A stretch of DNA of 64,000 nt from a virus: positions 1 through 64,000 of IMG/VR virus record IMGVR_UViG_3300046698_000540; one strand, 5' to 3'. The position numbers and the translations under genes were made by a program. The notes under the pieces are model-generated. The model was not told the DNA's origin. It saw only the letters and a list, made by a program, of their open reading frames with translations, and did not search any database. Below are positions 1 to 64,000 of the stretch, piece by piece; position 1 is the first letter of the stretch, and each line of letters opens with the position of its first letter.

Positions 1-157
1 CACATGCGACCGCGACCACGTTGGAGTGGCCCGTCGAAATGGTCTGCGAGAGAGTCAAAGTGCCGCTCTGGACATTGCCGAACGAGTTGGACACGTCAAG
101 TGGCGTGACCTGCCCCCACGCCGAAGCACACGCAAAAAGAAAAAGAGCAAGTCGCAT
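1..157 (-). CDS. Exported small protein, C-terminus cut off by the window edge
   Basis: The first 52 codons are visible, beginning MRLALFLFACASAWGQ, a short positively charged and hydrophobic signal peptide with a likely cleavage after the Ala-rich segment. The following region (VTPLDVSNSFGNVQSGTLTL) looks like a beta-rich virion or fibre-associated protein, but no family is recognised. The ATG overlaps the TGA of the fibre-like gene upstream (ATGA), so the two are translationally coupled. It is the last gene of the leftward operon seen here. The function is unknown. Confidence 0.7.
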   Translation of the reverse strand, partial: MRLALFLFACASAWGQVTPLDVSNSFGNVQSGTLTLSQTISTGHSNVVAVAC

Positions 158-3188: not shown

Positions 3189-3434
3189 CTATCGGCCGTA
3201 GCCTGCGTGTCCCCCCGGCCGGCCGCTTCCAAAATCAGGACCACCACCCAAGACCTGCCGATCCGCCGCGGTGAACTGACGGTTCAGCGTGGATTCAGGC
3301 GCCGCAAAGGAGCCTGGGTCGATGACCGGATTGATGCGCTCGTGCTTCTCCTCTATCCGGTCGAAAATGTCTTCAATACTCTCGCCCACAAGCTGTTCAC
3401 CTGTGGCCCAAGGATGTTCGATGTCGTGTTGCAC
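3189..3434 (-). CDS. Small protein with degenerate GGHAGYGR C-terminal tag
   Basis: An 81-residue protein. I use a GTG start giving VQHDIEHPWATGEQ because AGGAG stands five bases before it; an ATG 45 bases further upstream has a weaker site. The middle is acidic and helical (GESIEDIFDRIEEKHERI). The C-terminus ends GGGPDFGSGRPGGHAGYGR, a worn version of the tag shared with proteins at 51738, 53167, 59251 and 63162. The function is unknown. A GC-rich hairpin at 3451-3477 lies just upstream. Confidence 0.6.
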   Translation of the reverse strand: MQHDIEHPWATGEQLVGESIEDIFDRIEEKHERINPVIDPGSFAAPESTLNRQFTAADRQVLGGGPDFGSGRPGGHAGYGR

Positions 3435-3568: not shown

Positions 3569-4360
3569 TCAGCGTACCGCAAGATCCTTATGCATTTGCG
3601 CCATGAACCGAACTTCCTCAAAACCCAGCGCAAGAACTTTTTTCCAATTCTCGCACTCCACATATTTCCGCATGACCTCTTTGAAGGCTGGCTTGCCACT
3701 GAACCACTCTGCTTGGAAATACAAAGGGATCGTTCTTCGCCGGTCCTCTGGGACATTGCGCTCGCACCAGGAGAGAATCGCTTCGAACATCTGCAAGGAT
3801 TCCACGACGAACTTGAGATGCATAGGCACCGAGGATGAAATCCACTTCTTGACCTCCTTCTCTCCATGCGCGGAAATTTTCGCCGCGGCAGTGCCCTCGG
3901 TGAAGTTGAGAAGCTGGCCCGTGGTCTCAAACTTTGGAGACATGGACAGGTACACTCGGTACTTCATCCCGGCCAGGTCGGGGACGAAGATGGCGCCGTT
4001 CGTCTCGATCGTGATGAGCCTTTCTTGATTGTTCCTGTGGGCGGCGTACTCGAAATCTTGCTGAATTCTGTCCTGCTCCCGGACCAAACCAATAATCTCC
4101 ATCAGGTGGTTCGCCTGCAAGGTGGGCTCGCCGCCAGTGAAGCACGCCGGCACCTGGATGGCGTGGCGCGTAATCAGCTCCGCGATCTCTTCGTTGGCCA
4201 TTTCGTAAAAGCGGAATTGAGGCCTGTCGGAAAGCGTGGAAGGGGAATCGCACCATGCGCAGCTCAAATTACAGGTTGCGAAACGAACGAACTGCATGGG
4301 CACTCCGGCGTACTTCCCCTCTCCTTGAAGCGAAAAAAAAGTTTCATTCAATGTCGCCAC
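3569..4360 (-). CDS. queE: 7-carboxy-7-deazaguanine synthase QueE
   Basis: A radical-SAM enzyme of 263 residues that converts 6-carboxytetrahydropterin to 7-carboxy-7-deazaguanine, the third step toward preQ0. The FeS-binding cysteines C30, C34 and C37 (CNLSCAWCD) follow the typical N-terminus [18 protein letters not shown] and ETNGA are the expected SAM/substrate motifs. The length is slightly above the usual 200-245, with an insertion around residues 95-110 ([19 protein letters not shown]). The GTG start has GGAGG seven bases upstream. The gene overlaps its upstream neighbour by 17 bases. QueD is encoded 1.5 kb upstream, so the two steps are probably coordinated. Confidence 0.93.
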
Positions 4361-5864: not shown

Positions 5865-6326
5865 TCACCTCAAACTATACTGCACCGAAGCCCAGGTGCT
5901 CCCGGTCTCGCTCACAGCCACTTCCAGCACACGCGCCGCGGGATTTTCTTCCGCCACCTTCGCCTGGAGGGTGTCTAGGAGGATTGATCCGAATACCTCG
6001 GCCGTCGTCTGATCGAAGAAATCGTTCAGGTTGTGGTGGTCGTACTGGTCCAGAATCGCCTTGACGTGCGTGAAGTCGATCACCATGCCCTCTTTGTTCA
6101 ACTTATCGGCCACAATCACCACGCGGATCCGGTAAGTGTGGCCATGCGGCTCGTTGCACTTCGACTTGTAGGGCAGCTTCAACTGATGCGCGCAGTCGAT
6201 CGACTCGTTGATGGTCACTGCGTACTTGTAGGGGCTCACTCCTGCCATAGGCAGCCCAGCGTTCAAAATGCTAAGCGGAGGAACACCTTGCCCCGGTTTT
6301 TTTGAGTCAAACGGAATTCCTGCCAT
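5865..6326 (-). CDS. queD: 6-carboxytetrahydropterin synthase QueD
   Basis: A 153-residue T-fold enzyme that makes 6-carboxy-5,6,7,8-tetrahydropterin from dihydroneopterin triphosphate, the substrate of QueE. The zinc-binding histidines H47, H61 and H63, catalytic C57 in CNEPHGHTY, the DHHNLND segment (about 96-102), TTAE (107-110) and a C-terminal glutamate (VSETGSTW) are all present. About 25 extra residues precede the conserved domain; an internal ATG at codon 27 is a possible alternative, but the first ATG has a perfect GGAGGTG site. It probably works with QueE at 3569-4360. Confidence 0.93.
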   Translation of the reverse strand: MAGIPFDSKKPGQGVPPLSILNAGLPMAGVSPYKYAVTINESIDCAHQLKLPYKSKCNEPHGHTYRIRVVIVADKLNKEGMVIDFTHVKAILDQYDHHNLNDFFDQTTAEVFGSILLDTLQAKVAEENPAARVLEVAVSETGSTWASVQYSLR

Positions 6327-51737: not shown

Positions 51738-52100
51738 CTACATCGAACGACCGTAGCCGGCATGGCCGCCAGGAAGCGCCGCGTGACCAAGGATGTTGAA
51801 ATCCTGGCCGGACTTTTTTCCTTTTCCTTTTCCATGGTGGGGGGTCCTCCATCCTCTGAATCCACCACCTTTGGCACCTGAATTGTCTCTTTCCAATTCA
51901 CTGATGTGCCCCAAGTGATGCAAGGATCCCCCGTATTTGCTTTTCTGGTACACATTACCTGTGGGCTTATGCAAAAACTGGCCGCCGGGATGACTTTTAC
52001 CCTGCTGCTCAAACTCATGAGCGGGTAACATCTCGCCGCCTTTTCCGTGACCGCTACCTTGGACGTGGTACTCGTTTAATTTACCTCTTGGAAATCCCAT
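51738..52100 (-). CDS. Tagged small His/Gly-rich protein (paralogue of 53167)
   Basis: A 120-residue protein starting MGFPRGKLNEYHVQG behind GGAGGTTTGAA. It is His/Gly/Lys-rich and low in hydrophobic residues. The C-terminal 25 residues are the shared tag (begins KSGQDFN, ends LPGGHAGYGRSM). The first 14 residues and 68 bases of flanking DNA recur at the start of the gene at 53167-53553. No catalytic motif is seen; a virion-packaged or assembly protein is plausible. Confidence 0.7.
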   Translation of the reverse strand: MGFPRGKLNEYHVQGSGHGKGGEMLPAHEFEQQGKSHPGGQFLHKPTGNVYQKSKYGGSLHHLGHISELERDNSGAKGGGFRGWRTPHHGKGKGKKSGQDFNILGHAALPGGHAGYGRSM

Positions 52101-52129
52101 TTCAAACCTCCAAAACCATTGTGTCGGCC
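52061..52129 (-). repeat. Duplicated segment, copy 1
   Basis: About 69 bases nearly identical to 53502-53582, covering the ribosome-binding site and first codons of the tagged gene plus noncoding bases upstream. Copy 2 differs mainly by two 6-base in-frame tandem insertions (AAGTAC and TTTACC). Confidence 0.85.
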
Positions 52130-52131
52130 CG

Positions 52132-52644
52132 CTAGGCCGGTCCTACTACCGTCTTCTCCGAAGCCAGAGCCTCGGCAATTCTCTTCTTCAACCTGGTCAA
52201 CTCCGTCTGCACTTCCCGGTCCATTGCCACCTTGTCCACGGACTTTTTGGCGCCAGGGTGCCTCACTCGCGGCCCAAAAAACTGATCTCCGCTGGCGAAC
52301 TGGAAAGCCAGCACCTTGGCATGAACCGCCTGGATAGCGTGCCTTTTGGTCCCACTCTGCAACAGCGGCCAAATTTTCGCCGCTCGTGGGTCAATGTTCC
52401 GAATCAGGATCTTCAGCTTCGCGTGCGGCTCGTCCGTCTCCACTTCGCCTTTCCACCCGGCGCGCAATTTTCCCGGCGAAGGCTGGTTGGGATCCTTCGA
52501 CACCGGCGTATATTTCCGGTAGAGCTTTTCCAGGATGGCTGAGGACTCGACGGCGACACCCTTCAGCCGGGTGAACTTCAGCATGTTCTCCATCCGTTTC
52601 AGAACGGCGTCCATGCTGACCGAGATTTTGATGCCGTCGATCAT
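52132..52644 (-). CDS. HK97-gp10-like tail completion protein
   Basis: A 170-residue protein starting MIDGIKISVSMDAVLKRM. AVESSAILEKLYRKYTPVSK followed by KLRAGWKGEV and a His/Arg region (GTKRHAIQAVHAKVLAFQFA) matches the gp10/minor tail completion family, which joins head connector and tail. The stretch SGTKRHAI then GP-R-HPGAKK is its usual end. The position between connector and tail tube genes fits. Confidence 0.75.
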   Translation of the reverse strand: MIDGIKISVSMDAVLKRMENMLKFTRLKGVAVESSAILEKLYRKYTPVSKDPNQPSPGKLRAGWKGEVETDEPHAKLKILIRNIDPRAAKIWPLLQSGTKRHAIQAVHAKVLAFQFASGDQFFGPRVRHPGAKKSVDKVAMDREVQTELTRLKKRIAEALASEKTVVGPA

Positions 52645-52645
52645 T

Positions 52646-53170
52646 TCAAACCTGCGCGATCGCGGAAAAATCTTTGACTGAGTTCATGGCCGCCATGGCT
52701 GCCGGCGTAATGGCGTCCGTGTTGCCGCTCCACCACCAGTCCCAGGCCATGCTGGCGCGCATCGCAGCGATAAAAGAAAAAGCCCGCTCCTTCACCGCCG
52801 CTTCTTCCAAACCGAAGAACGGGTTGCTGTGAAGAACATCGCCGTCAAGGTTGGCGTATTCCTCCACCGATCCGAGCAGCCAGCACCTGAACGTCTTGCA
52901 TGTGGGCGGTTTTACGCCTTGAATTTCACAGGAGTGCTTGCCTTCCGTTCGGCTCAAAAAAGCGCAGCGCCCGTGAGACCTGGTGTTAAGAACCGGCAGA
53001 CTACCCGGCCTGTCTTGGGCTACCTCCACAGCCTCCACTCGGAGCAAAAAATCCGCTGTGGTGTTCAGGTGATCTGCTACCTCTTCCAAGTTGGGAACAG
53101 GAACCCCGTGCGCTACGTAGCAGCAGGCTCCGCACTGCTGGCAGAGTTCTTCGGTCCAGGGGAACTTCAT
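52646..53170 (-). CDS. YkgJ-family cysteine cluster protein
   Basis: A 174-residue protein with the YkgJ zinc/iron-chelating pattern: LCQQCGACC near the N-terminus, GRCAFL, HSCEIQGVKPPTCKTFRCW. These eight cysteines hold a metal in the family. The biological role of YkgJ proteins is unclear; an oxidoreductase or metal-binding role is inferred. An embedded place in a head-tail joining module is unusual. ATGA overlap with the tagged gene upstream. Confidence 0.8.
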   Translation of the reverse strand: MKFPWTEELCQQCGACCYVAHGVPVPNLEEVADHLNTTADFLLRVEAVEVAQDRPGSLPVLNTRSHGRCAFLSRTEGKHSCEIQGVKPPTCKTFRCWLLGSVEEYANLDGDVLHSNPFFGLEEAAVKERAFSFIAAMRASMAWDWWWSGNTDAITPAAMAAMNSVKDFSAIAQV

Positions 53171-53553
53171 CGGCCGTAACCCGCATGCCCACCGGGAAGC
53201 CCCGCATGACCCAGGATGTTGAAGTCCTGACCGGATTTGCGACCAAATGGATTGTGCCCCGGCTTGCTGTGCGATTTGCCGGGATGTTTTTTGCCAAACT
53301 TGCCATGCTTGCCACCGGCGTTATGGTCGCCTGTTACCGGATCGAAGGTGCCTCCGTTCATAACATCATTGGTATAGTAGTGACCTAACTCACCGTGAAT
53401 GGTGTACCTCTCACCCGAGGAGTTTGGCCCAAAGTACTTTTCTGCTTCCTTATGCGAACCGAATGAGGGAGTCCCCATAGGCCCGTGCTTACTACCGCGT
53501 GGGACGTGGTACAAGTACTCGTTTAATTTACCTTTACCTCTTGGAAATCCCAT
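53167..53553 (-). CDS. Tagged small His/Gly-rich protein (paralogue of 51738)
   Basis: A 128-residue protein starting MGFPRGKGKLNEYLYHV. It is rich in His, Gly and Lys (GGKHGKFGKKHPGKSHSKPG) with a short folded part (SHKEAEKYFGPNSSGERYTI). It ends with the shared tag (KSGQDFN...LPGGHAGYGR). The N-terminus and flanking DNA duplicate the gene at 51738. Function unknown. Confidence 0.7.
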   Translation of the reverse strand: MGFPRGKGKLNEYLYHVPRGSKHGPMGTPSFGSHKEAEKYFGPNSSGERYTIHGELGHYYTNDVMNGGTFDPVTGDHNAGGKHGKFGKKHPGKSHSKPGHNPFGRKSGQDFNILGHAGLPGGHAGYGR

Positions 53554-53582
53554 TTCAAACCTCCAAAACCATTGTGTCGGCC
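53502..53582 (-). repeat. Duplicated segment, copy 2
   Basis: Partner of 52061-52129. In this copy the upstream part also encodes the last ten residues of the connector-like gene (LADTMVLEV and stop), so this is probably the source copy and 52061-52129 the derived one. Confidence 0.8.
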
Positions 53583-54469
53583 AGCAAGTCGATGAAGTTC
53601 TCTACCTTCAGAGAAACTGGATCGCTCATCGCGGCCAGCATGTTCCAGTTGACCGCCGCCAGGATGAAGTACCACGTCCCGGTCGGCAGCAGAGTGTACT
53701 CCATCCACAATTCGTTCTTGGCCATCTGCGCTTCCCCTGTCGAAATCCAGGGGCCTGAAACGCGCTCGAAGGCCAGCGTGTCGGAGTAATAGTCGTAGAT
53801 CGTGCGGATCACCTGCCAGGTTTCAAGAGGCGCCCGTGGATTCTGCGAAGCGTAGAAGCGAAGGTATGCGAGATCGCCTGTGTCCATCCGGGCCCAGTCC
53901 AAAACCAGGCGCCCGAAAGGAACGGCGATGTTCTGGAATCCTCCTGTGTCGGCCGGCGGATTCACCCTGGCGTTCGGATAGTAGAGGTAGGAAACCGACA
54001 GGAGTTTCGGCTTCGGAGGCGGCGGCGCAATCTGCACGGGAACCTTGGCGTGAATAAGCCTACTGTCCCGGACCAGGTTGCCAATCACGATGTCCCCGCT
54101 CACATTGTCTTGTGCGGCGATGCGATCGCGCTGGTAGTCGTACTCGTCCCGCAGCTCGTTAGCGGCGGTAATGAGCATCTGTGAATTGCCCGTCTTGTCT
54201 GCGGAAAAATTCGCGCCTACGGAAACTCGGGTATCTAGAGCATATTCCAGCGCCTTATCCCGGGCGATGCGGACCTTCGCCAGCAGCAGGATGAGCTGTT
54301 CTTCCTCCACGGGAACTGTTGCCCACGTGTAAGACTTGTTGTGCTGGCGAAGGGCCTCGAACAGGGCCTCGTTCAGGAGAGCATTGTCGAAACGCCGCTC
54401 TCCCGTGAGCCAGGAGATGTCTCCAAGCTGGCCCCGCATCGTTTCCCGTAATGCTGAAATAGTGGCCAC
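53555..54469 (-). CDS. Probable head-tail connector/structural protein
   Basis: A 304-residue protein starting MATISALRETMRGQLGD. The N-terminal helices (SWLTGERRFDNALLNEALFE, KVRIARDKALEYALDTRV) resemble head completion/adaptor proteins that recognise gp6-like helical bundles, followed by a beta-sandwich domain (PKLLSVSYLYYPNARVNPPA, GPWISTGEAQMAKNELWMEY) that may be a decoration domain. It lies between capsid-side and tail-side genes, where adaptors are expected. Confidence 0.65.
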   Translation of the reverse strand: MATISALRETMRGQLGDISWLTGERRFDNALLNEALFEALRQHNKSYTWATVPVEEEQLILLLAKVRIARDKALEYALDTRVSVGANFSADKTGNSQMLITAANELRDEYDYQRDRIAAQDNVSGDIVIGNLVRDSRLIHAKVPVQIAPPPPKPKLLSVSYLYYPNARVNPPADTGGFQNIAVPFGRLVLDWARMDTGDLAYLRFYASQNPRAPLETWQVIRTIYDYYSDTLAFERVSGPWISTGEAQMAKNELWMEYTLLPTGTWYFILAAVNWNMLAAMSDPVSLKVENFIDLLADTMVLEV

Positions 54470-54481
54470 TGCACCATCCGA

Positions 54482-55078
54482 TTATTCGTAGTACGGGTAA
54501 GCCAGTTCCTCCCGTATCAAGCCGTCGCGAACACTCTTCGGCACCTCGCACACCACGTCCTTCGTGAAGTAGTAGCGGTACGGCCCAATGAACCTGCTGC
54601 CGGTGAACCTGGGCCTCACCTTCACTACCTTTTCCTCCGAAACCAGAGCCTCATCGATGGGGCCAATCTGGATCTTCGTGCGAAGGTCCGCCCTGGAAGC
54701 CGGCCCGACCGGGGGAGGAGCTTGTGTGCTTGGATCGGTGAACACCGGCTTGGGCGCCGGCGGAGGGTCGTTGTAAAGGTTGGACGTTGTCGTAAGGCCC
54801 TGCGGAGGAAGCGGGATGTCGTTTGCCCGCGCGCCTTCGGCGAGCTGATCCATAACCGAACTGTTGAAAGCGGCCGGGGGGACTTCTCCCTTGAACGGCT
54901 TGCCTTCCTCGGTCTTTCCCGTGATTTCCCGCCCTCTTACAGAGTGTGACGTATCGGGTTCAGAATTCGTGTTTCTCGTGCCAGCAGGCAGCGGAACTTC
55001 AATCATTCGTTTCGGCTGCGGAAGTTTTGTCCGCTCCGGAACTGCCTCTGGAATATCCAGCGTTGTGTTCTTTGCCAT
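54482..55078 (-). CDS. Hypothetical head-module protein
   Basis: A 198-residue protein starting MAKNTTLDIPEAVPERTK. It is Pro-rich and probably disordered for the first 140 residues; the end (VVKVRPRFTGSRFIGPYRYY, DVVCEVPKSVRDGLIREEL) looks folded and resembles short C-terminal domains of phage head proteins. The ATG is chosen over the longer frame. No family is recognised. Confidence 0.55.
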   Translation of the reverse strand: MAKNTTLDIPEAVPERTKLPQPKRMIEVPLPAGTRNTNSEPDTSHSVRGREITGKTEEGKPFKGEVPPAAFNSSVMDQLAEGARANDIPLPPQGLTTTSNLYNDPPPAPKPVFTDPSTQAPPPVGPASRADLRTKIQIGPIDEALVSEEKVVKVRPRFTGSRFIGPYRYYFTKDVVCEVPKSVRDGLIREELAYPYYE

Positions 55079-55105
55079 GGTTTTACCTTTCCTCGTTGCA
55101 ATCAC

Positions 55106-55120
55106 CGCCCCTTTCGGGCG
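55106..55120 (-). other. Short hairpin after the decoration gene
   Basis: CGCCC and GGGCG enclose a CTTTC-type loop in the 81-base gap after the gene at 55160. The remainder of the gap holds nothing recognisable. Confidence 0.4.
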
Positions 55121-55159
55121 ATACCTGATTGTACCGAAGCAGTGTTCAAGTTTGCGCTG

Positions 55160-55618
55160 TTACGCGCGGATGCGAATGCGCACGGCCATCTGAGGCGTAG
55201 CCACTCCGCCAGCGGAATGCTCGACGGAGAAGGTCAACACATCGTTCAGTTTGGGTGGCGCCTTCGTAGCGTCCAGTGTGAGAGTGAACGGAACGTACGC
55301 AGCCTGTGACACGGAGGCCGTGGTCAGGGAAGCCAGAACATCGGTCCCTGTGCCATCGCCCTTCCGGTTATACAGCTTGAACGTAACGTAGTTCGATCCA
55401 TTTGCGGCGATCGCAGCCTGCGCAATGACCTCAACCGAATCGATCTGAATGGGATCCGCGGCGGCGCCGCTTCCCTTCAGCATTTTGTCAAGGACCGTTT
55501 CCGCATCCGTGCCCGCGGTTCCCCGCGCGGCGATGGAATACTGCTTTTCTATGAAGTTGCGAACGGCCCCCTTATCGACAGGAACCGTTCCGACATAACC
55601 GAGTGCACCTATAGGCAT
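55160..55618 (-). CDS. Probable capsid decoration protein
   Basis: A 152-residue protein starting MPIGALGYVGTVPVDKG, directly after the major capsid gene, the usual place of decoration or head-fibre proteins. It is beta-rich (SVEVIAQAAIAANGSNYVTF, LKLYN absent, FTLTLDATKAPPKLNDVLTF, QMAVRIRIRA). No family is recognised; assignment is from position and composition. Confidence 0.6.
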   Translation of the reverse strand: MPIGALGYVGTVPVDKGAVRNFIEKQYSIAARGTAGTDAETVLDKMLKGSGAAADPIQIDSVEVIAQAAIAANGSNYVTFKLYNRKGDGTGTDVLASLTTASVSQAAYVPFTLTLDATKAPPKLNDVLTFSVEHSAGGVATPQMAVRIRIRA

Positions 55619-55663
55619 TTTTCTCCTTTCATTTCGACCAGACTTTGACCAAACGCCCTGGCG

Positions 55664-56605
55664 CTACGCCGACACGATCGGCAGAATGTTGTCGCCGTTG
55701 ATGATCTTCGACCCCATGATCGAATACCACCCAAGCGAATGCTTGCGGCCGAAGTCCTCGACGCCGTTGTCCCGCATCTCGACCGGAAGCCCGACCGCCC
55801 ATGCGTAACTGTTGTCGCCCATCAGGACCGCTTTGTACAGATTGACGGAGCCTGCGCCGGCCGTAACCAGGGTGGCATCGTAAGCCGGATCGGTGGAGAG
55901 AACCGCGCCATTGTTCATGTGCCCGGTGCCCACAAAACGAACATCGTCGAAGCGGCCGAGTTCGCCGCGGAAGAGCTGTTCGGTGGCGCCGTAAGTCGAA
56001 GCCGACACCCATTCCGGATCGCGCTTCAGGCTGGAAGCCTGATGCGGGTGAACGAAACAGGCGAAAAAGTCCCCATTGAACTTGGGAACGTTGAGGGTGT
56101 ACAGACGCTCGACACCGGCGCGCAGGTCGTCGATGCGCAACGGCTGGGAAATGCTGGACAGCGGCCAGGCGCCGCCCGAGCCGATGGAGTTTGCCGATGC
56201 CATCACAGCATTGCGCAACAGCAAGTCGGTGACACGGGCGTAGTCGCGCCCCAACTGGTACGCGGCCTCGGTCAACACATCGTCGTATGCGGACTGGAGC
56301 AACAGTTCCGAAATGGCAATTGCGTTGCCATACTCGGTCACCGTTACAAAGACCTGCGAGGCGGTCATGGCCTGCGTGGTCATGTTGACGCCTTCGGTGA
56401 GGGGTCCGCCGAGCGCCAGGTTCTCGTAGATCGTGAAATAAATGGTCAGGCCGGGCTGCCGGGTCAGTTCGTCCTTGATGACGGCGAACTGCTCGAACCG
56501 CATGGCCGGAAGCGCGCGGTGCTGAATTTCGCGCGAATAGACGTTCAGAATTGCTTGCGGCAAACCGGTTACCACACCGGCTGTCGCCGTACCCGTAAGT
56601 GCCAT
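55664..56605 (-). CDS. Major capsid protein, N4-gp56 family
   Basis: A 313-residue coat protein. The order QAILNVYSREIQHRALPAMR, then FEQFA, DELTRQPGLTIYFTIYENLA, EYGNAIAISELLLQSAYDD and ARVTDLLLRNAV matches the N4-gp56 branch of the HK97 fold. Later text (NGDFFACFVHPHQASSLKRD and GTGHMNNGAV) is typical as well. No prohead-protease site is seen, so scaffold removal may not need cleavage. Scaffold gene lies 33 bases upstream. Confidence 0.92.
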   Translation of the reverse strand: MALTGTATAGVVTGLPQAILNVYSREIQHRALPAMRFEQFAVIKDELTRQPGLTIYFTIYENLALGGPLTEGVNMTTQAMTASQVFVTVTEYGNAIAISELLLQSAYDDVLTEAAYQLGRDYARVTDLLLRNAVMASANSIGSGGAWPLSSISQPLRIDDLRAGVERLYTLNVPKFNGDFFACFVHPHQASSLKRDPEWVSASTYGATEQLFRGELGRFDDVRFVGTGHMNNGAVLSTDPAYDATLVTAGAGSVNLYKAVLMGDNSYAWAVGLPVEMRDNGVEDFGRKHSLGWYSIMGSKIINGDNILPIVSA

Positions 56606-56638
56606 TGACGTAGCTCCTTAAGCAAAGTCCTGCGCCTT

Positions 56639-57382
56639 TCAGCGCGGCTGCTTCATTGGGAGCCCTGCATCCTGGAAAATCTTCGCTTTGATATCTTTCT
56701 TTTTCTGATCCCACTCTTGAGGGGACATGTCCCGCCAAGCTTCTAACCCGCCTGCTGTTACGGCTGCGTCACCTGAGGGTGTGCCCGGAAATACCGGTTT
56801 TGGCAGAGCTTCACGAAGTGGCGCCCCAAGTTCCTTTCTTACGCGCTCAGCTTCTCTGTCGGCGATTTCCTTGTACTTCGCCTTCGCGCGCTCGAAACTT
56901 GCCTGTAGCTCCTCGGGTGTGTTGCCGGCCACCATTTCCGGGATCAGCTCTTGTGTACTCTGGAGGAGGCCCGTGCGCTGCGCCTCAAGCCGATCTCTGC
57001 GGCGCTGCTCCTCATTTTCCTTGCGCTGATTGTCCAGCGCGTCGTCCATTGCCTTACTGAACTGGTCCGTCATGCTGGAAACCTGGCCCGTGAGGGCCGC
57101 GATTTGTTGTTCCAGCGTCTGAGCTTTCCGGCTTCCATCCTGCGCGGTCTCGAGGGCCGCGCGGGCGTCCGCCAGTTCCCGCTCCTTTTTCTGCAGGTCG
57201 GCTTTGTGACGTTCGATCTCGGGATAAAGCTTGGCCTTCTCATCCCGTCTGGCTTCTGCAAGCCTGCGTTCTACCTCTTCCGCCGAGATGCCCCCATTAC
57301 CGGCTGCTGCCTGATGCGGCGGGGCTCCTGCGGGTGATCCTGGTTGTTCTCCGGCTGCTGGTGTGACCTGTGATGTTGCCAT
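56639..57382 (-). CDS. Scaffolding protein
   Basis: A 247-residue, highly charged helical protein starting MATSQVTPAAGEQPGSP. Coiled-coil heptads fill residues 35-150 (KADLQKKERELADARAALET, DDALDNQRKENEEQRRRDRL), and a basic C-terminal helix (WDQKKKDIKAKIFQDAGL) would bind the coat protein. It sits between portal and capsid genes, the standard place. Confidence 0.88.
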   Translation of the reverse strand: MATSQVTPAAGEQPGSPAGAPPHQAAAGNGGISAEEVERRLAEARRDEKAKLYPEIERHKADLQKKERELADARAALETAQDGSRKAQTLEQQIAALTGQVSSMTDQFSKAMDDALDNQRKENEEQRRRDRLEAQRTGLLQSTQELIPEMVAGNTPEELQASFERAKAKYKEIADREAERVRKELGAPLREALPKPVFPGTPSGDAAVTAGGLEAWRDMSPQEWDQKKKDIKAKIFQDAGLPMKQPR

Positions 57383-57422
57383 GGTTTCCTTATCCTTCGT
57401 GAAAATTCTTCACCTAGCTGAA

Positions 57423-57608
57423 CTACGCCAGGCGGGGATCCACTGCCACCCGAACCAGGGCGTCCGGATCGAGCGAGTTGGTGGTGGCCCGCGGAGTGGC
57501 GTCCGGGCGATACCCGGTCTTCCGCTGACTCTTGTTGGCGCCCGCTTCCACCCCGATGCCCCGTTCGTCATTCACGCGGCCCGGCTGAGGGTTAATCGCT
57601 TTCTGCAT
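57423..57608 (-). CDS. Small protein between portal and scaffold
   Basis: A 61-residue protein starting MQKAINPQPGRVNDERG behind GGAGGCAAC. It is Pro/Arg/Asp-rich and probably mostly disordered. No family is recognised. Its good ribosome site and its place in the packed head operon support it. Confidence 0.6.
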   Translation of the reverse strand: MQKAINPQPGRVNDERGIGVEAGANKSQRKTGYRPDATPRATTNSLDPDALVRVAVDPRLA

Positions 57609-57666
57609 GTTGCCTCCTTACTGTTCATACACCCTTTCGGGTCCAAAACACAACTTCATGCTACCA

Positions 57667-59241
57667 CTACACTCCCGAGGCCTGCGCTCCTGCCTGTTTT
57701 TCGGCTTTGGCTGAGGACTCCTCGGCTGCCGCCGCCTCTGTCTTTGGCGGCTTTTTTCCGGGCGGCTTGGGACCTCCCGCACCGCCTGCTCCACCACTCA
57801 CACCAGCTTCCTGAAGATTCACGGCGTGGTTCAACTGCAACTCGTTTTCTTGCTCTGTTGCCTTTTGAAGCTCTTCGTCCACTTCGTCCAAAACCTTTTG
57901 TGCGTCGCTCACATCCAACTCGGCTGGCGCGATGTCATCGTGGATCAATTCCCGCAAGATCATGGCCCGGGAAAGCAGTTTCATCTGCTGCATGACGGTC
58001 AGCTCGTTCAACCGAAGCTGCTTGTCGCGCGGCAGGGGGTCCGGCCACTTCACGCCGCTGTAGTAAGGCAGGGGACGGCCATTGGCCTTGTAGTCTCCCA
58101 AAATTTCCCGGACGCGGAGAATTTGGTAGTTCACGTACTGGATGCCCTTCGTATACGTGAGCCGCTTCTTCTTCATGTGCTCCAGGATCGGAGCGAACTG
58201 GATGGCCAGGGCAACGCCAGACGTATTCGAGATCGGAACGTCGCCCCCAAAGGCAACCTTCGGCATGGAGCCAAGCTGGAACAACGTGTCCTTCAGATTC
58301 ATCAGGTACTCGCGTGCCGCCGCCAAATCGCCCTGCAGCTCCAGGTTCTCCACCCTGGCGTCCTTCGGCAGACCACTCCACACCTTACGGGCGCCTTTTT
58401 GCAGCGTGGAAGCCTTCGCGCCATAAATCACGGTCACCGGCGCCGCGTGGTAGTTGATGATGTCGCCCAAGTCGGTGGTCTTCTCGTTGAACTCCCGATT
58501 CGAGTCCACCACCTGGCCGATGTCCGACATGCCGAAAAATTCCGTGCCCACCATCAGGTTCGGAATATGCGTGAACGGAATTTCCCCCAAAAGGTTCGGC
58601 TTGGAATTGCTGATGGGCTGGCCGTCCCGCAGTTCCCAAACCTCATCCTTCGTCCAATACTGCCCCGCGACGTAGGTCCGAACCCTGACGCGGCCGAAAG
58701 CATTGCTCACCACTTCCGATTCGGGCCACTGCACCAGCAAACCGGAAAATCCGCGGTCGGAATTTCTGAAAAAAATCGGGAAAACAAATTCGCTTGGAAA
58801 GACGGTCAACTTTACGCGATCGCCAAAGACCGCATCGTTGTCGATCCCGACGTTTACCCAACAGTCGCCTGTCACCCCTCCGACTTGGCCCATCTGGAAA
58901 CCAAGCTGCCCAATGTGGTTTTTTTCCCACTCCTCGTTCAACAGGTCTTCGGCTGCCTGATAGGCGCTGCCGCGAAAATTCGCGTGGATCGTGAACTGAT
59001 TGCCGAACAGATATTGCGAGTGCTTGTCCACGAAAAGCTGCACGAAGTTCGCGGTGGTCACAGGCTCGCCGGCCTCGGGAACATAGTTCCAGTGGTTGCC
59101 CTTGTAGAAGTTCCAGAGCCTGCCGTATTGCAGAATGCGGGCGGCGTTCTGATGCCAGATGTCTATTTCGTGCCCCGACGTGATCGGGTAGTCCCGGTTC
59201 ACGCGATTCAGCGTGAACCTGGTCATGTCGCCCATGCTCAT
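57667..59241 (-). CDS. Portal protein (SPP1-gp6-like)
   Basis: A 524-residue protein forming the DNA entry ring at one capsid vertex. Text such as WHQNAARILQYGRLWNFYKG, FVQLFVDKHSQYLFGNQFTI, PFTHIPNLMVGTEFFGMSDI and GDVPISNTSGVALAIQFAPI is characteristic of the SPP1-like portal family, with the helical crown near the C-terminus (LNELTVMQQMKLLSRAMILR). The last 60 residues are Gly/Pro/Lys-rich. Neighbours: scaffold and capsid. Confidence 0.92.
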   Translation of the reverse strand: MSMGDMTRFTLNRVNRDYPITSGHEIDIWHQNAARILQYGRLWNFYKGNHWNYVPEAGEPVTTANFVQLFVDKHSQYLFGNQFTIHANFRGSAYQAAEDLLNEEWEKNHIGQLGFQMGQVGGVTGDCWVNVGIDNDAVFGDRVKLTVFPSEFVFPIFFRNSDRGFSGLLVQWPESEVVSNAFGRVRVRTYVAGQYWTKDEVWELRDGQPISNSKPNLLGEIPFTHIPNLMVGTEFFGMSDIGQVVDSNREFNEKTTDLGDIINYHAAPVTVIYGAKASTLQKGARKVWSGLPKDARVENLELQGDLAAAREYLMNLKDTLFQLGSMPKVAFGGDVPISNTSGVALAIQFAPILEHMKKKRLTYTKGIQYVNYQILRVREILGDYKANGRPLPYYSGVKWPDPLPRDKQLRLNELTVMQQMKLLSRAMILRELIHDDIAPAELDVSDAQKVLDEVDEELQKATEQENELQLNHAVNLQEAGVSGGAGGAGGPKPPGKKPPKTEAAAAEESSAKAEKQAGAQASGV

Positions 59242-59250
59242 ATTAGAGCC

Positions 59251-59670
59251 TCACTGTCCGTATCCTGCGTGCCCGCCTGGAAGTCCTGCGTGACCTAAGA
59301 CGTTGAAATCCTGACCAGACTTGTGCGTTCTGCTCCCTCGCTCGCCTATGACAACTGGCAGTTTTGCCATTCCCATCTCGCGTCCTATAGCCAGACGGTG
59401 GTGCCCGTCTTCTATATGGTAGTGTCCTTCACCCTCGTGGCGCAGAATGATAGGTGCCATACCGTGCTTGCGTACGTGCTCCTTGAACTTTTCCAAATAG
59501 GGGCGCTCGAATTTCTGAATGGAAGCGACCCTACCTGCATCCTGCAACTTCATCAGGTGTGCCTTGGTGGCCATAAAGCCCGAGGCACCTTGAGACTCGT
59601 GGATTGCTCGAGCAGCTCTGTGCGCTTCGCGCCGCTCGTGATCATCCCGTGCTTCTTCATCAACCGTCAT
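59251..59670 (-). CDS. ParB-like-domain protein with C-terminal tag
   Basis: A 139-residue protein starting MTVDEEARDDHERREAH, ATGA-coupled to the glycosyltransferase gene. Residues 45-110 resemble the small ParB/sulfiredoxin nuclease-like fold (YHIEDGHHRLAIGREMGMAK, LPVVIGERG), with the DG-x-HR motif. The last 23 residues are the shared tag (KSGQDFN, then VLGHAG, LPGGHAGYGQ). It may nick or bind DNA inside the virion; that is inference. Confidence 0.7.
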   Translation of the reverse strand: MTVDEEARDDHERREAHRAARAIHESQGASGFMATKAHLMKLQDAGRVASIQKFERPYLEKFKEHVRKHGMAPIILRHEGEGHYHIEDGHHRLAIGREMGMAKLPVVIGERGSRTHKSGQDFNVLGHAGLPGGHAGYGQ

Positions 59671-60905
59671 TTCCGCACTGTCTCCGTGAGGATAGCTTGC
59701 TCGATCTGACTCCAGACCGCTTCCCATCGGTAATGCTGGCGGTAGAACGTCTTAGCCCGAAGAACGTGGTTCGACTCCATCGTGTGCACGATGATCTTCG
59801 CCATGTCCCGGAAAAAAGCCGCCTTGTCTGGCATCTCCACCTGCTGCTGGTAGCTGCCGAACGTGAAATGCAGAGCGCTCCCTGGGCCGGCGATTTCCTG
59901 GAACATGGGCAGATTTTGGTTCAGCACCAAAAGCTGTCCACACAGAGCCGCCTCTGCGGGCGCGTATCCAAAAGATTCTGACTTCGATGGGCAAATAAAA
60001 AGGTTGCCTATCTGCATCAAATCGTGCACCACGGCCTGTGAAACTCCAACCTCAAACTCGGGATCGAACCGGCTGGTGAAAATCACTTCCCGGTCAGTGA
60101 GCCCCTGGTCGAACGCGTGGTTGATCAGAAACTTCACGTCGGCCCGGCGCTCATCCGTGTTGCACCAAGCGTTGCAGAAAATCAGGCGCACGCTTTTTCC
60201 GTGGCGTTTCAGTTGGCCGAACAACTCGATCACTTCCTTGGCGCCTTTTGGCTCGTAGCGATCGGTGGGGATCGGGTACACCTGAATGATGTCCGCCGCC
60301 AGCACGTCGTACTCGGTCACCAAACGCTCCGCCAGATCGGTGCGGAACATGTACTCGCGGGGATCTTTTGAATGCGGAATTATCAGCACGTTCTCCTGCC
60401 AGGTCCGAAAATGTTCCGCGCATCGAATGCGGTCCTGGTGGTTCGGATAAACGAGCTTCCCGTTGGGTGGCACCCGCCAGTAATCGCGCATGCCTCCACC
60501 CGGAACGGAATGCACCCAGTGAAAATGCGGAAAAGGCCAGAACGTAGCCGCTTCCTGCATTCCCAGGTTCAGCGGCAAATTCCAGCCCGTGAATAGAATG
60601 TCGTGCGAGAACAGGGCGTTCAGATCGCCGAGGCTGCCGGCCATCCACCGGCAAGCTGCTCTGCCCACGTCGATATGCTCCATGGGCAGTTCCGAAAGGC
60701 TTTTGTAATCCTTCTTGGCCCAAACAGGCAGCCCGGCGCGGATCTCAACCCAATCCGGCGCCTCGGGCCATTTGAAATCTTCAAGCCCAATCAATACGGG
60801 CGTGTGACCAGCGTGGTGAATCATCCGCAACTGCCCGAGCACCACAGCGGTTAAGCTGTAGTGATCCAACATTGCGGAGAAGGCCGTCAAAAGTCCAATT
60901 TTCAT
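59667..60905 (-). CDS. GT4-type glycosyltransferase
   Basis: A 412-residue enzyme. The N-terminus (MKIGLLTAFSAMLDHYSLTA) and the second Rossmann domain (FICPSKSESFGYAPAEAALC) carry the nucleotide-sugar E-x7-E signature of retaining GT-B family 4 transferases. It may glycosylate virion proteins such as the Thr/Ser-run tails or modified DNA bases. A glycosyltransferase between portal-side and S74-protein genes is unusual. It starts 69 bases after the S74 protein, with a hairpin between. Confidence 0.85.
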   Translation of the reverse strand: MKIGLLTAFSAMLDHYSLTAVVLGQLRMIHHAGHTPVLIGLEDFKWPEAPDWVEIRAGLPVWAKKDYKSLSELPMEHIDVGRAACRWMAGSLGDLNALFSHDILFTGWNLPLNLGMQEAATFWPFPHFHWVHSVPGGGMRDYWRVPPNGKLVYPNHQDRIRCAEHFRTWQENVLIIPHSKDPREYMFRTDLAERLVTEYDVLAADIIQVYPIPTDRYEPKGAKEVIELFGQLKRHGKSVRLIFCNAWCNTDERRADVKFLINHAFDQGLTDREVIFTSRFDPEFEVGVSQAVVHDLMQIGNLFICPSKSESFGYAPAEAALCGQLLVLNQNLPMFQEIAGPGSALHFTFGSYQQQVEMPDKAAFFRDMAKIIVHTMESNHVLRAKTFYRQHYRWEAVWSQIEQAILTETVRK

Positions 60906-60924
60906 GCCTCTCCAATCGAATGCG

Positions 60925-60949
60925 GGCGGCGCTTTTTTGGGGCGCCGCC
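60925..60949 (-). other. Strong hairpin between S74-protein and glycosyltransferase genes
   Basis: GGCGGCGC and GCGCCGCC form a perfect 8 bp stem; the loop contains a run of six T/A. In the minus-strand RNA no U-run follows the stem, so strong termination is not predicted. Confidence 0.5.
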
Positions 60950-60974
60950 TACACGGAGGTTAGCAGGTTTTCGG

Positions 60975-61913
60975 TCAGATGACCGGGCCATGGTAGCTTC
61001 GCCTGCGAACCGACGACGCTACTTCTTGCTGAGGTTCCTCGACCAGCGGCCCATCTTCAACGTAGGGGCCCACCAGAGCCATCAGGATCTGGGTATTCAC
61101 ATTGCCCAACCCCAACAGCTCGAACAGCTTGCCGTAGTTGATCTGCCACGGCTCATTCTCCGGAACAGGACCGCCAACAACAACGGCTTCCGGATAGCGC
61201 TCGTAAACTTCTTGCGCGAGAAGACCCACGTATACTTTCTTTTCGAGGTCGGCCTTGAAATAGAACGCGTACACGTTCAAGCCGAACACCTGTGCGATCT
61301 TGGACAGGATCTCCTTCAACCGGGCATCCGAGGTCGTGGTAGTCGTAGTGGTTGAAGTCGTAGTGGTCGAAGTCGTAGTGGTCGTGCTGGTCGAAGTGGT
61401 GCTGGAACTGGTCGTGCTCGTCAACCCGGTGAACGTGTTGACGAAAACCGCCAGCCAACTGCCGCCGCGGACATAGTTGTCAACCAGCTTTTTCGCCAGC
61501 CATTGGGAAATGTCCGGCGAAGGAATCATCGCGTATGCTCTTTCCACGATGTCCCTTTGGCGCACGATGCACGTGTAGGTGACACCGCCGATGGTCCCCG
61601 TGATCTGCACCCGGTCGTAGCCTGCCACCAGGGAGTAGCACGTCGCCTTGTTGCCAAATGTCACCGCAACCTGCGTCGTCGAACGCGGGTGTGTGATGTT
61701 GACCGTTCGGCTTGCCACGAGATTGTTGATGAGCTGGTCCATGCGGGCCCAGTCATCCAAGAACGCTTGCGCCACGCTGGTACCCGTCAGTTCCGTGGGG
61801 TTGAAAGGCTTGGTCCATTCCATCAGATGCGAATTGCCGTCAACCGTACCCGACAAGAGCCAGGAGCCTTCGGCATCGAAAGGAACAGCCGCTGTAATAA
61901 TCACTGTAGACAT
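60975..61913 (-). CDS. Virion protein with Thr/Ser linker and S74 self-cleaving chaperone
   Basis: A 312-residue protein. Residues 1-160 form a beta domain (MSTVIITAAVPFDAEG start). Residues 165-195 are almost all Thr and Ser. Then SDARLKEILSKIAQVFGLNV, YAFYFKADLEKKVYVGLLAQ, EVYERYPEAV and INYGKLFELL match the intramolecular chaperone domain of endosialidase-type (peptidase S74) fibres, in which a Ser at the start of the domain cleaves the chain. Cleavage before S195 would leave the Thr/Ser run as a new C-terminus. S74 proteins usually sit among tail-fibre genes, not next to terminase and portal. Confidence 0.85.
   Translation of the reverse strand: MSTVIITAAVPFDAEGSWLLSGTVDGNSHLMEWTKPFNPTELTGTSVAQAFLDDWARMDQLINNLVASRTVNITHPRSTTQVAVTFGNKATCYSLVAGYDRVQITGTIGGVTYTCIVRQRDIVERAYAMIPSPDISQWLAKKLVDNYVRGGSWLAVFVNTFTGLTSTTSSSTTSTSTTTTTSTTTTSTTTTTTTSDARLKEILSKIAQVFGLNVYAFYFKADLEKKVYVGLLAQEVYERYPEAVVVGGPVPENEPWQINYGKLFELLGLGNVNTQILMALVGPYVEDGPLVEEPQQEVASSVRRRSYHGPVI
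61329..61421 (-). repeat. Thr/Ser codon run
   Basis: About 31 consecutive Thr/Ser codons written with varied ACN and AGC/TCN codons (many ACGACTTC and ACGACC steps), a low-complexity tract prone to slippage. Similar but shorter runs end the proteins at 39637, 43219 and 49234. Confidence 0.85.
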
Positions 61914-61950
61914 GGTTTTCTGCTTACCTCCTCTTTTCGTCAATGAAGCG

Positions 61951-62154
61951 CTATCGTGTTTCGGTGTCCACGCGGGTACGCTCCTGGCTCGCGCGGTTCT
62001 GATCGCCATGCCCTCCCGGAGGGGGACCTTTCCGCGGACTTCCTACTCGGGAGCCTGGAGGAACGCGGGGATTTCCGGGCGGCGTAGAAAAACCGCGGCC
62101 GGAGGTATTGTCTTGCGAGAATGCGCCCTCGCCGGGGCGCGCTTTGACTGCCAT
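61951..62154 (-). CDS. Small Gly/Pro/Arg-rich protein
   Basis: A 67-residue protein starting MAVKARPGEGAFSQDN after GAGGAATAAGCT. It is Gly/Pro/Arg-rich with no hydrophobic core and contains PPPGGHGDQ, loosely like the Gly/His tag of other small proteins here. No family is recognised. Confidence 0.5.
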   Translation of the reverse strand: MAVKARPGEGAFSQDNTSGRGFSTPPGNPRVPPGSRVGSPRKGPPPGGHGDQNRASQERTRVDTETR

Positions 62155-62157
62155 AGC

Positions 62158-62355
62158 TTATTCCTCCTTGGCGCCTTCGTGCTCTTCCTTGGCGGCCTGC
62201 TTGTGCTTGTGGTGCTGGGCCAGGTGGTGCTTGTGCTTCGCCGAGTGGTGCTTCTCTTCGTCCCACTCTCCCTGTTTGGCCGCTTCGTCCGCCAGGCCTT
62301 TGTGATGCTCCGCGAGCTTGCCGTGCATATCTGCTTCGTCACAATGAGAACACAT
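62158..62355 (-). CDS. Small His-rich protein with N-terminal CxxC
   Basis: A 65-residue protein starting MCSHCDEADMHGKLAEH with 16 histidines, many in HKHHLAQHHKHK, and alternating Lys/Glu. It could bind metal ions or act as a charged packaging protein. No family is recognised. GAGGA precedes the ATG. Confidence 0.55.
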   Translation of the reverse strand: MCSHCDEADMHGKLAEHHKGLADEAAKQGEWDEEKHHSAKHKHHLAQHHKHKQAAKEEHEGAKEE

Positions 62356-62364
62356 GGTTCCTCC

Positions 62365-62826
62365 TCAGAAACTTCCGGTATACCCAGACAGTGGGCCGGT
62401 CAGGCTCTGCTTCGCCAGCAGGGCGAGGATCTGTGCCACTCGCTGCGTGAAGAGCGGCGTCGTCATCAGCGACCAGTCCAGGAAGCTCACCGTGCTCATG
62501 GTGATCGTGAAGGACGTGCTGTACACCGTGGCCGTGATCGACACCTGACCGTAGCCCGGATTCGTAACCGGCGATGCACCAAATGTCACCGTTGGTAAAT
62601 CCGGCAGATTGGAAACCGTAACCACCTGATTCGCCAACTGCGCGATCGCCGCAAGGTAGGCCGCGATTTCGGCCAAGACCATGGCGGCCAGTTTGGACGC
62701 CGGCATGGAGATTTGATCGAGGGCCACGTTGTCTTTGGCGTACAAATAATTGGTCACCCCGCCGCCCGTTGCTTTCACGTAGAGCCGGTTCAGATCCGGG
62801 TCCACGCTGAGACTCGTTACTGTCAT
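62365..62826 (-). CDS. Hypothetical head-module protein
   Basis: A 153-residue protein starting MTVTSLSVDPDLNRLYV. It has beta-strands and one hydrophobic helix (SKLAAMVLAEIAAYLAAIAQ). No motif is recognised. It lies among terminase-proximal genes. Confidence 0.5.
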   Translation of the reverse strand: MTVTSLSVDPDLNRLYVKATGGGVTNYLYAKDNVALDQISMPASKLAAMVLAEIAAYLAAIAQLANQVVTVSNLPDLPTVTFGASPVTNPGYGQVSITATVYSTSFTITMSTVSFLDWSLMTTPLFTQRVAQILALLAKQSLTGPLSGYTGSF

Positions 62827-62835
62827 AAAACGCTC

Positions 62836-63165
62836 CTATTGACTGATTTTTCCGCGCGCCTCGGCGCGGCGTTGCTGAAACTCGCTGCCCCGGTACTCTT
62901 CCCGGCCGTCGTGCATCTCGTGGGTCGCCGCCGGCGCATGGCCCGGTTCGCCAAGCACGAAGTGATCCTGGAAGGAAATAGCCGTGCCCACCTTGGCCAG
63001 ACCTTGAACAGCACCTCTCACAGACCACTTGTGCGGGGTTTTATCCAGATGTCCAGGGGCTTTGTGCTTGTGCGTTTCGACCAGACCACAATCCGTGCAC
63101 ACCCTTGGTTCGGGGCTGCCCGTCATGAAATTTGCGAACTTTTGACCTTTGCTTCGAATGCTCAC
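62836..63165 (-). CDS. Small CxxC protein
   Basis: A 109-residue protein starting MSIRSKGQKFANFMTGS. VCTDCGLVETHKH offers a CxxC-x(n)-H-x-H metal site. It has an ATGA junction with the tagged gene upstream. No family is recognised. Confidence 0.55.
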   Translation of the reverse strand: MSIRSKGQKFANFMTGSPEPRVCTDCGLVETHKHKAPGHLDKTPHKWSVRGAVQGLAKVGTAISFQDHFVLGEPGHAPAATHEMHDGREEYRGSEFQQRRAEARGKISQ

Positions 63166-63452
63166 ATGGACCTCCCGTAGCCGGCGTGCCCGCCCGGCAA
63201 CGCGGCATGGCCCAGAATGTTGAAGTCTTGACCGGACCGCTCTAAACTGGATTTGGCGCCTGTTCTGGCAAACTTCAACTGGGAATGCGTTTGCCTGTGC
63301 GGGCCGAACCGCGGTTCTGCGCCGGCCTTTTTCGCCTTAGCACTCCAGTTCTTTCCGTGGTGTGCCTTCAGCATTTTCTTGTGCTCTGGGGTGGCTCGAC
63401 CTTGTGCATGAGCCTCTTCCGCTTCCGTTAAAAAATCCGCTGTTCTGGACAT
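63162..63452 (-). CDS. Tagged small basic protein next to terminase
   Basis: A 96-residue protein starting MSRTADFLTEAEEAHAQ, chosen over a GTG nine bases upstream because GAGGG lies just before this ATG. The body is Lys/Ala-rich and helical (EHKKMLKAHHGKNWSAKAKK). The C-terminal 25 residues are the shared tag (RSGQDFN, ILGHAA, LPGGHAGYGRSM). It lies 5 bases after the terminase stop. Confidence 0.7.
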   Translation of the reverse strand: MSRTADFLTEAEEAHAQGRATPEHKKMLKAHHGKNWSAKAKKAGAEPRFGPHRQTHSQLKFARTGAKSSLERSGQDFNILGHAALPGGHAGYGRSM

Positions 63453-63457
63453 GGCCC

Positions 63458-64000
63458 TCACAATCTATGAAACGGCATTTCACGATCCGACGCAAGTCCT
63501 CGCTGGTGGCGGCCCTTGCCGGGATTCAGGAAGAAGTTGTCGTGCTCCTCGATCTCCCTGTTCTCATCGGCAACAAAGTCGCACGCCAAACAGCCAAGCA
63601 TCAAGCTGGAACAGAAGTCCTTATAGGAGGTCTCGTCCCCGGCCTCCACGGCCAAATAAGCGCCACGGTAGACCTTTTGCAGATTCGTCATCTGCGAGAC
63701 GAAATTGCGCTGCTTCTGGCCCTTTCGGGCTCGTTCGCTGTTGGGGTATTCGAATCGTTCGTTCTGCAGGTCCGCTAGAAGGCGTGAGTAACCGTCGTGG
63801 TTGGTCGATTGGTCCGCAATGAACCGTATCAGCTCCAGCTCGTTCGCGGCAATTTGCGCCTGGAAATAATTCTCCAGCATATCCGCCATTGCCTCGCCGA
63901 CGCCCGTGGCGTCGATCATGATCCGCTTCAATCCCCGGTAGTTGACCAAGAAGTCCCGGATCTGGCTGAACTGCGCGACATAATCGTCGCCAGTGATCTG
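63458..64000 (-). CDS. terL: Terminase large subunit, C-terminal nuclease part (cut by window edge)
   Basis: About 180 C-terminal residues are visible. IMIDATGVGEAMADMLENYF carries the conserved acidic residue and G-x-G helix of the RNase H-like nuclease of large terminases; the frame continues upstream without a start (DDYVAQFSQIRDFLVNYRG), so the ATPase domain lies outside the window. It cuts concatemeric DNA during packaging. The end of this gene begins the tagged-protein and structural operon. Confidence 0.8.
   Translation of the reverse strand, partial: QITGDDYVAQFSQIRDFLVNYRGLKRIMIDATGVGEAMADMLENYFQAQIAANELELIRFIADQSTNHDGYSRLLADLQNERFEYPNSERARKGQKQRNFVSQMTNLQKVYRGAYLAVEAGDETSYKDFCSSLMLGCLACDFVADENREIEEHDNFFLNPGKGRHQRGLASDREMPFHRL

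Follow-up and report, generated by a model that had tools for sequence, protein, structure and literature searches.

Four small minus-strand genes of a phage genome, at positions 51738, 53167, 59251 and 63162, encode proteins with non-homologous bodies that share the C-terminus SGQDFN[IV]LGHA[AG]LPGGHAGYG[RQ]. The codons of this peptide (the tag) show selection on its amino acid sequence, and comparison with a sister lineage shows that bodies were exchanged while the tag was kept. We propose, with slightly less than even confidence, that the tag serves in C-terminal sorting or docking and joins exchangeable late proteins to a common head-assembly partner, as head cargo. The window analyzed here is a stretch of 64,000 nucleotides, bases 1–64000 of the 100,369-bp virus record IMGVR_UViG_3300046698_000540.

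A C-terminal peptide shared by small late proteins

In the four strong copies, a 22-residue core is followed by zero to two residues and then the stop codon. Across the tagged proteins, the core motif PGGHAG[YF]G is positioned one to three residues from the protein end. Peptide search and codon comparison located the copy SGQDFNILGHAALPGGHAGYGRSM at both 51741..51812 and 63165..63236, SGQDFNILGHAGLPGGHAGYGR at 53170..53235, and SGQDFNVLGHAGLPGGHAGYGQ at 59254..59319, all on the minus strand. A 24-residue search of the whole record returned exactly four matches (E 8e-14 to 3e-11), confirming the strong copies of the original prediction on the minus strand next to stop codons. Their position-matrix scores were 105–109, compared with at most 36.5 in shuffled copies of the genome.

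The bodies that carry the tag differ in composition. Tagged protein 1 (51738..52100, minus strand; 120 aa, pI 9.9) is rich in Gly, His, and Lys and belongs to no family, and tagged protein 2 (53167..53553, minus strand; 128 aa, pI 9.8) has the same composition and a 5′ end in common with protein 1. The stop codon of the latter gene overlaps the start of the next (ATGA). Tagged protein 3 (59251..59727, minus strand; 158 aa), encoded directly upstream of the portal gene, contains a ParB_N domain at residues 65–129 (E 4e-6). Tagged protein 4 (63162..63461, minus strand; 99 aa, pI 10.5) is rich in Lys, Arg, and His; its gene, correctly placed at first but given too short an extent, continues to 63461, lies directly downstream of the terminase gene and overlaps the terminase end with its start. 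Apart from the protein at 59251, the window's tagged bodies matched no family above the cut-off in Pfam, PHROGs, NCBIfam, or PADLOC, and searches with two of the bodies against phage records found no relatives.

A fifth tagged protein, acidic and 81 aa long, is encoded at 3189..3434 on the minus strand. Its GTG start codon is preceded by the Shine-Dalgarno-like AAAGGAGCGGAA, and it reads as a small gene. The protein carries a short-form tag, GSGRPGGHAGYGR, and ends in GRPGGHAGYGR. The matrix score of this tag (33.75) is inside the shuffled-genome range, so the call depends on the exact C-terminal PGGHAGYGR before the stop codon. The shared ending of this copy holds, but its description as worn does not: it is better termed a variant, because a comparable short form (SGSTVLTGKPGGHAGYGQ followed by the stop codon) occurs in a sister phage. 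Taken across the five bodies, three are strongly basic (pI 9.8–10.5), one is neutral, and one is acidic.

That the bodies are unrelated is correct in the sense that they are non-homologous, but the genes at 51738 and 53167 do have some sequence in common: a 56-nt block comprising their upstream region and first codons (window 52080–52135 and 53533–53588) is 96% identical. Their 5′ ends were therefore shared recently, unlike their diverged tags.

The four strong copies all fall within a minus-strand run that extends from the terminase through the portal, scaffold-like, and capsid protein genes to the tail genes, as the original prediction of their operon placement had it. The large terminase gene occupies 63458–65278 of the record, with its C-terminal part in the window (63458..64000). 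The 524-aa portal protein (57667..59241) is SPP1 Gp6-like. The gene for a scaffold-like protein (56639..57382) was assigned from its position between the portal and capsid genes and from comparison with relatives, and the major capsid protein is encoded at 55664..56605 (phrog_1357, E 2e-50); both proteins are candidate partners of the tag, and these genes are all on the minus strand. The copy at 3189 is outside the head module and adjoins a QueE-like gene. We recognized by eye this gene (3569–4360) and a QueD-like gene (5865–6326), both of the 7-deazaguanine pathway; modified phage DNA is therefore suggested. Separately, window 1–180 is 89% identical to record 96663–96845, at the far record end.

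Selection on the tag and its distribution

Between any two of the four strong copies, 10–14 of the 22 codons differ synonymously, compared with 0–3 non-synonymously, in agreement with the synonymous differences noted originally. Third codon positions have pairwise identities of 0.36–0.50, and first and second positions of 0.82–1.00. The tag dN is 0.02–0.10 and dS is saturated or nearly so, values that indicate purifying selection. Codon matches number 7–10, compared with 7.1–8.0 (s.d. about 2) expected from random draws from this phage's codon usage, and the longest exact DNA run common to any two copies is 12 nt. Because third positions are saturated while the first two are 82–100% identical, selection acts on the tag peptide. 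The synonymous saturation and the short shared runs exclude that the tag copies arose recently by duplication or gene conversion. Both halves of the earlier claim, selection on the peptide and no recent copying, are therefore upheld.

Neither the 50,697 phage records nor the 72,556 plasmids searched contained the tag. Against Pfam, PHROGs, and PDB sequences, the tag had no match above the cut-off (best DUF7682, E 0.37). These searches revealed no longer known domain containing the tag, and they support the statement that it belongs to no described family. We also scanned 2.9 million viral contigs with degenerate DNA encoding PGGHAGYG, GGHAGYG, GGHAGFG, and GQDFN..LGHA. Outside the clade, the matches listed were short or random frames or internal positions, and none of those listed placed GGHAGYG within four residues of the stop codon of an open frame of at least 60 codons.

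Distant relatives encode a homologous terminase (29–40% identity) or capsid protein (36–54%). When 35 terminase and 77 capsid relatives were surveyed with the tag profile and by comparing C-terminus against C-terminus, neither the tag nor an analogous shared C-terminus was found, including in Streptomyces phage LuckySocke and Bacteroides phage BS162P1; the C-terminus matches that did occur were homologous domains or out-of-frame repeats. A prophage search with the capsid protein and terminase in 84,980 genomes found no relatives. The tag seems to have arisen within a single small phage clade, although tags diverged past recognition would escape these searches.

Tagged genes in a sister lineage

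Two further contigs are near-identical to the window (99.8–100%). One diverged lineage is represented by IMGVR_UViG_3300041809_001829 (L022) and by a fragment in another metagenome (L012). At the protein level, L022 and the window are 94% identical in the capsid protein, 78% in the terminase, 78% in the portal, and 55% in the scaffold. Most genes from terminase to capsid are 55–94% identical in protein, whereas the tagged genes match solely in the tag region.

At the position after the terminase, L022 encodes a 78-aa DUF6496 protein (E 1e-10) ending in SNQDACILGSHGLAGGHAGFGRSI, and the window encodes the Lys-rich protein at 63162, ending in GHAGYGRSM. Before the portal gene, L022 encodes a HAD-like phosphatase (phrog_1238, E 3e-6) that carries the short form described above, where the window encodes the ParB-like protein at 59251, ending in GHAGYGQ. 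DNA homology between the lineages restarts inside the tag and stops again near the gene start. Because these gene pairs match in the tag region alone, two syntenic positions have kept the tag and exchanged the body, a result that strengthens the original observation. The HAD matches in other phages end before the tag, and a Rhizobium phage HAD relative is without it. Single-sequence AlphaFold2 models of the ParB-like and HAD proteins had mean pLDDT values of 41 and 52, respectively, which are of low confidence and uninformative on a bound form.

A preference for body swaps in tagged genes was not significant among the terminase-to-capsid genes (2 of 2 tagged compared with 2 of 11 untagged; Fisher p about 0.08, calculated by hand). 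The window and L022 lineages have themselves diverged at synonymous sites, and a codon-level orthology test is thus uninformative.

A third L022 tag copy, SGQDSTELTGKQKAGGHAGRGQ, occurs close to the beginning of the following open frame (L022:5061-5180, tag-like MKKAMRKKSGQDSTELTGKQKAGGHAGRGQ...), resembling a mini-gene of the tag alone whose stop codon has been lost. In the gene after tagged protein 4 (window 62836–63165; L022:5061-5294), the bodies differ and the C-terminal EYRGSEFQ[QS]RRA[EA]A is kept, possibly as a second shared C-terminal signal.

Candidate functions of the tag

A recognition signal for one partner fits best, because the tag is a selected short peptide at a fixed protein end and the bodies are exchangeable. 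The earlier suggestion of a targeting signal is, on these sequence features, a reasonable interpretation. In the model that we favor, the approximately 22 C-terminal residues would act as a portable docking peptide for exchangeable small late proteins, and all tagged proteins would share one common partner through it. Since head genes surround the four strong copies, a head partner is the first candidate; the partner would most likely be a head-assembly component, namely the scaffold, the inner capsid wall, or the portal. Tagged proteins would then be loaded into the prohead and perhaps delivered along with the DNA. Three elements of this model are inferences, namely binding by the tag, a virion location for its partner, and the role of the tagged proteins as head cargo. 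The three strongly basic bodies of the five could fit DNA-associated head proteins, and the others are neutral or acidic. The main points against head loading are that the 3189 copy lies away from the head module and that the tag is confined to one small clade. Since distant relatives with a homologous terminase or capsid protein do not have the tag, this clade alone would have to exploit a conserved capsid site.

The known systems offer partial parallels. T4 internal proteins have short shared N-terminal capsid-targeting sequences and differing mature parts, and T4-type packaged proteins vary between related phages (PMC9026906). In Family 1 encapsulins, short C-terminal peptides load unrelated cargo into HK97-fold shells (PMC8346489). 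The tag resembles the capsid-targeting sequence of T4 IPI, IPII, and IPIII in being one short peptide on small, divergent proteins in a late or head context, with bodies that vary between related phages. However, the T4 sequence is N-terminal, 10–19 residues long, and cut off by the protease gp21, whereas all strong copies of the tag are C-terminal and have another sequence, and no protease was recognized among the head-module proteins scanned. Like encapsulin cargo-loading peptides, the tag is a short C-terminal peptide on unrelated proteins, but those peptides have other sequences and serve cellular compartments, whereas the tagged genes are in a tailed-phage head operon with a portal, a terminase, and a phage capsid protein, to which binding of the tag is a candidate interaction. 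Being neither N-terminal nor in a cellular context, the tag belongs to neither system. By analogy, the T4 internal proteins would be the closest working model. Polymorphic effectors and toxins combine a constant trafficking part, usually N-terminal and long, with exchangeable domains. The tag is similar in that a constant part is kept while the functional domain is swapped at the same locus, but here the constant part is a 22-residue C-terminal peptide.

Among the alternatives, the partner could lie outside the virion: the tag might dock these late proteins to a complex for host takeover, to a compartment made by the phage, or to a chaperone or protease adaptor that they share and that controls them. 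The bodies do include enzyme-like domains without a known structural role (ParB/Srx-like and HAD phosphatase), and the 3189 copy sits beside the QueE-like gene, away from the head module. We nevertheless consider this reading unlikely: the four strong copies fall in the terminase-to-tail interval, a region that encodes virion proteins, and no candidate adaptor or compartment gene was recognized. The tag could instead be a site of modification or cleavage, for example trimmed at head maturation or glycosylated by the glycosyltransferases that flank the terminase and portal genes. A glycosyltransferase gene adjoining 59251 is conserved in both lineages (78% identity), and more glycosyltransferase-like genes were recognized by eye ahead of the terminase. 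This is improbable, since conservation peaks at the extreme C-terminus and at Gly, His, and Tyr rather than at a Ser/Thr-rich or cleavage-like site; the absence of a prohead-protease match among the head-module proteins scanned, a subset of the record's genes, slightly lowers the processing idea. Separate from the tag, runs of 10–31 residues consisting of only Ser and Thr occur in tail-region proteins, either internally or at the C-terminus (window 61421, 43251, and 39678, minus strand), and a 35-residue Ser/Thr run at L022:7833 matches them. With glycosyltransferase genes nearby, these runs could be glycosylation sites.

Shared ends might also be a by-product of modular recombination, in which a short sequence in common serves as the exchange point for bodies and the peptide has little function of its own. 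Recent DNA-level sharing of the 5′ ends of 51738 and 53167 shows that recombination is active at this locus, and it is ahead of the portal gene that homology between the lineages restarts inside a tag. We find this explanation decidedly improbable, because the longest identical run between tags is 12 nucleotides, which is little for homologous recombination to use, and because the residues are conserved despite synonymous saturation, which shows selection on the peptide. Finally, conservation could act on the nucleic acid, with the tag DNA serving in ribosome binding or translational coupling for the gene that follows, since the start codon of that gene adjoins or overlaps the tag end (ATGA after 53167, GTGA after 63162). 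However, third positions vary as much as random codon choice would, and the Shine-Dalgarno-like stretches are dissimilar and, in two copies, are found at the stop codon or beyond it. The codon analysis has largely refuted this highly improbable explanation.

On the docking model, the sequence pattern may, tentatively and short of an even chance, represent an undescribed C-terminal trafficking tag with which a tailed phage plugs unrelated small proteins, among them basic, phosphatase-like, and ParB-like ones, into a common late destination such as the capsid. Such a tag could, on an equally tentative footing, be a naturally occurring cargo-loading system of a true phage that acts through protein C-termini, with bodies exchanged and the tag kept. 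Should the tag prove to direct head loading, it would form a C-terminal equivalent of the T4 capsid-targeting sequence, could reveal which small phage proteins of unknown function travel in the virion, and would provide a new peptide for putting cargo into phage shells. Even without head loading, a tag that is kept while the attached protein is swapped is a clear and testable case of modular protein evolution in phages.
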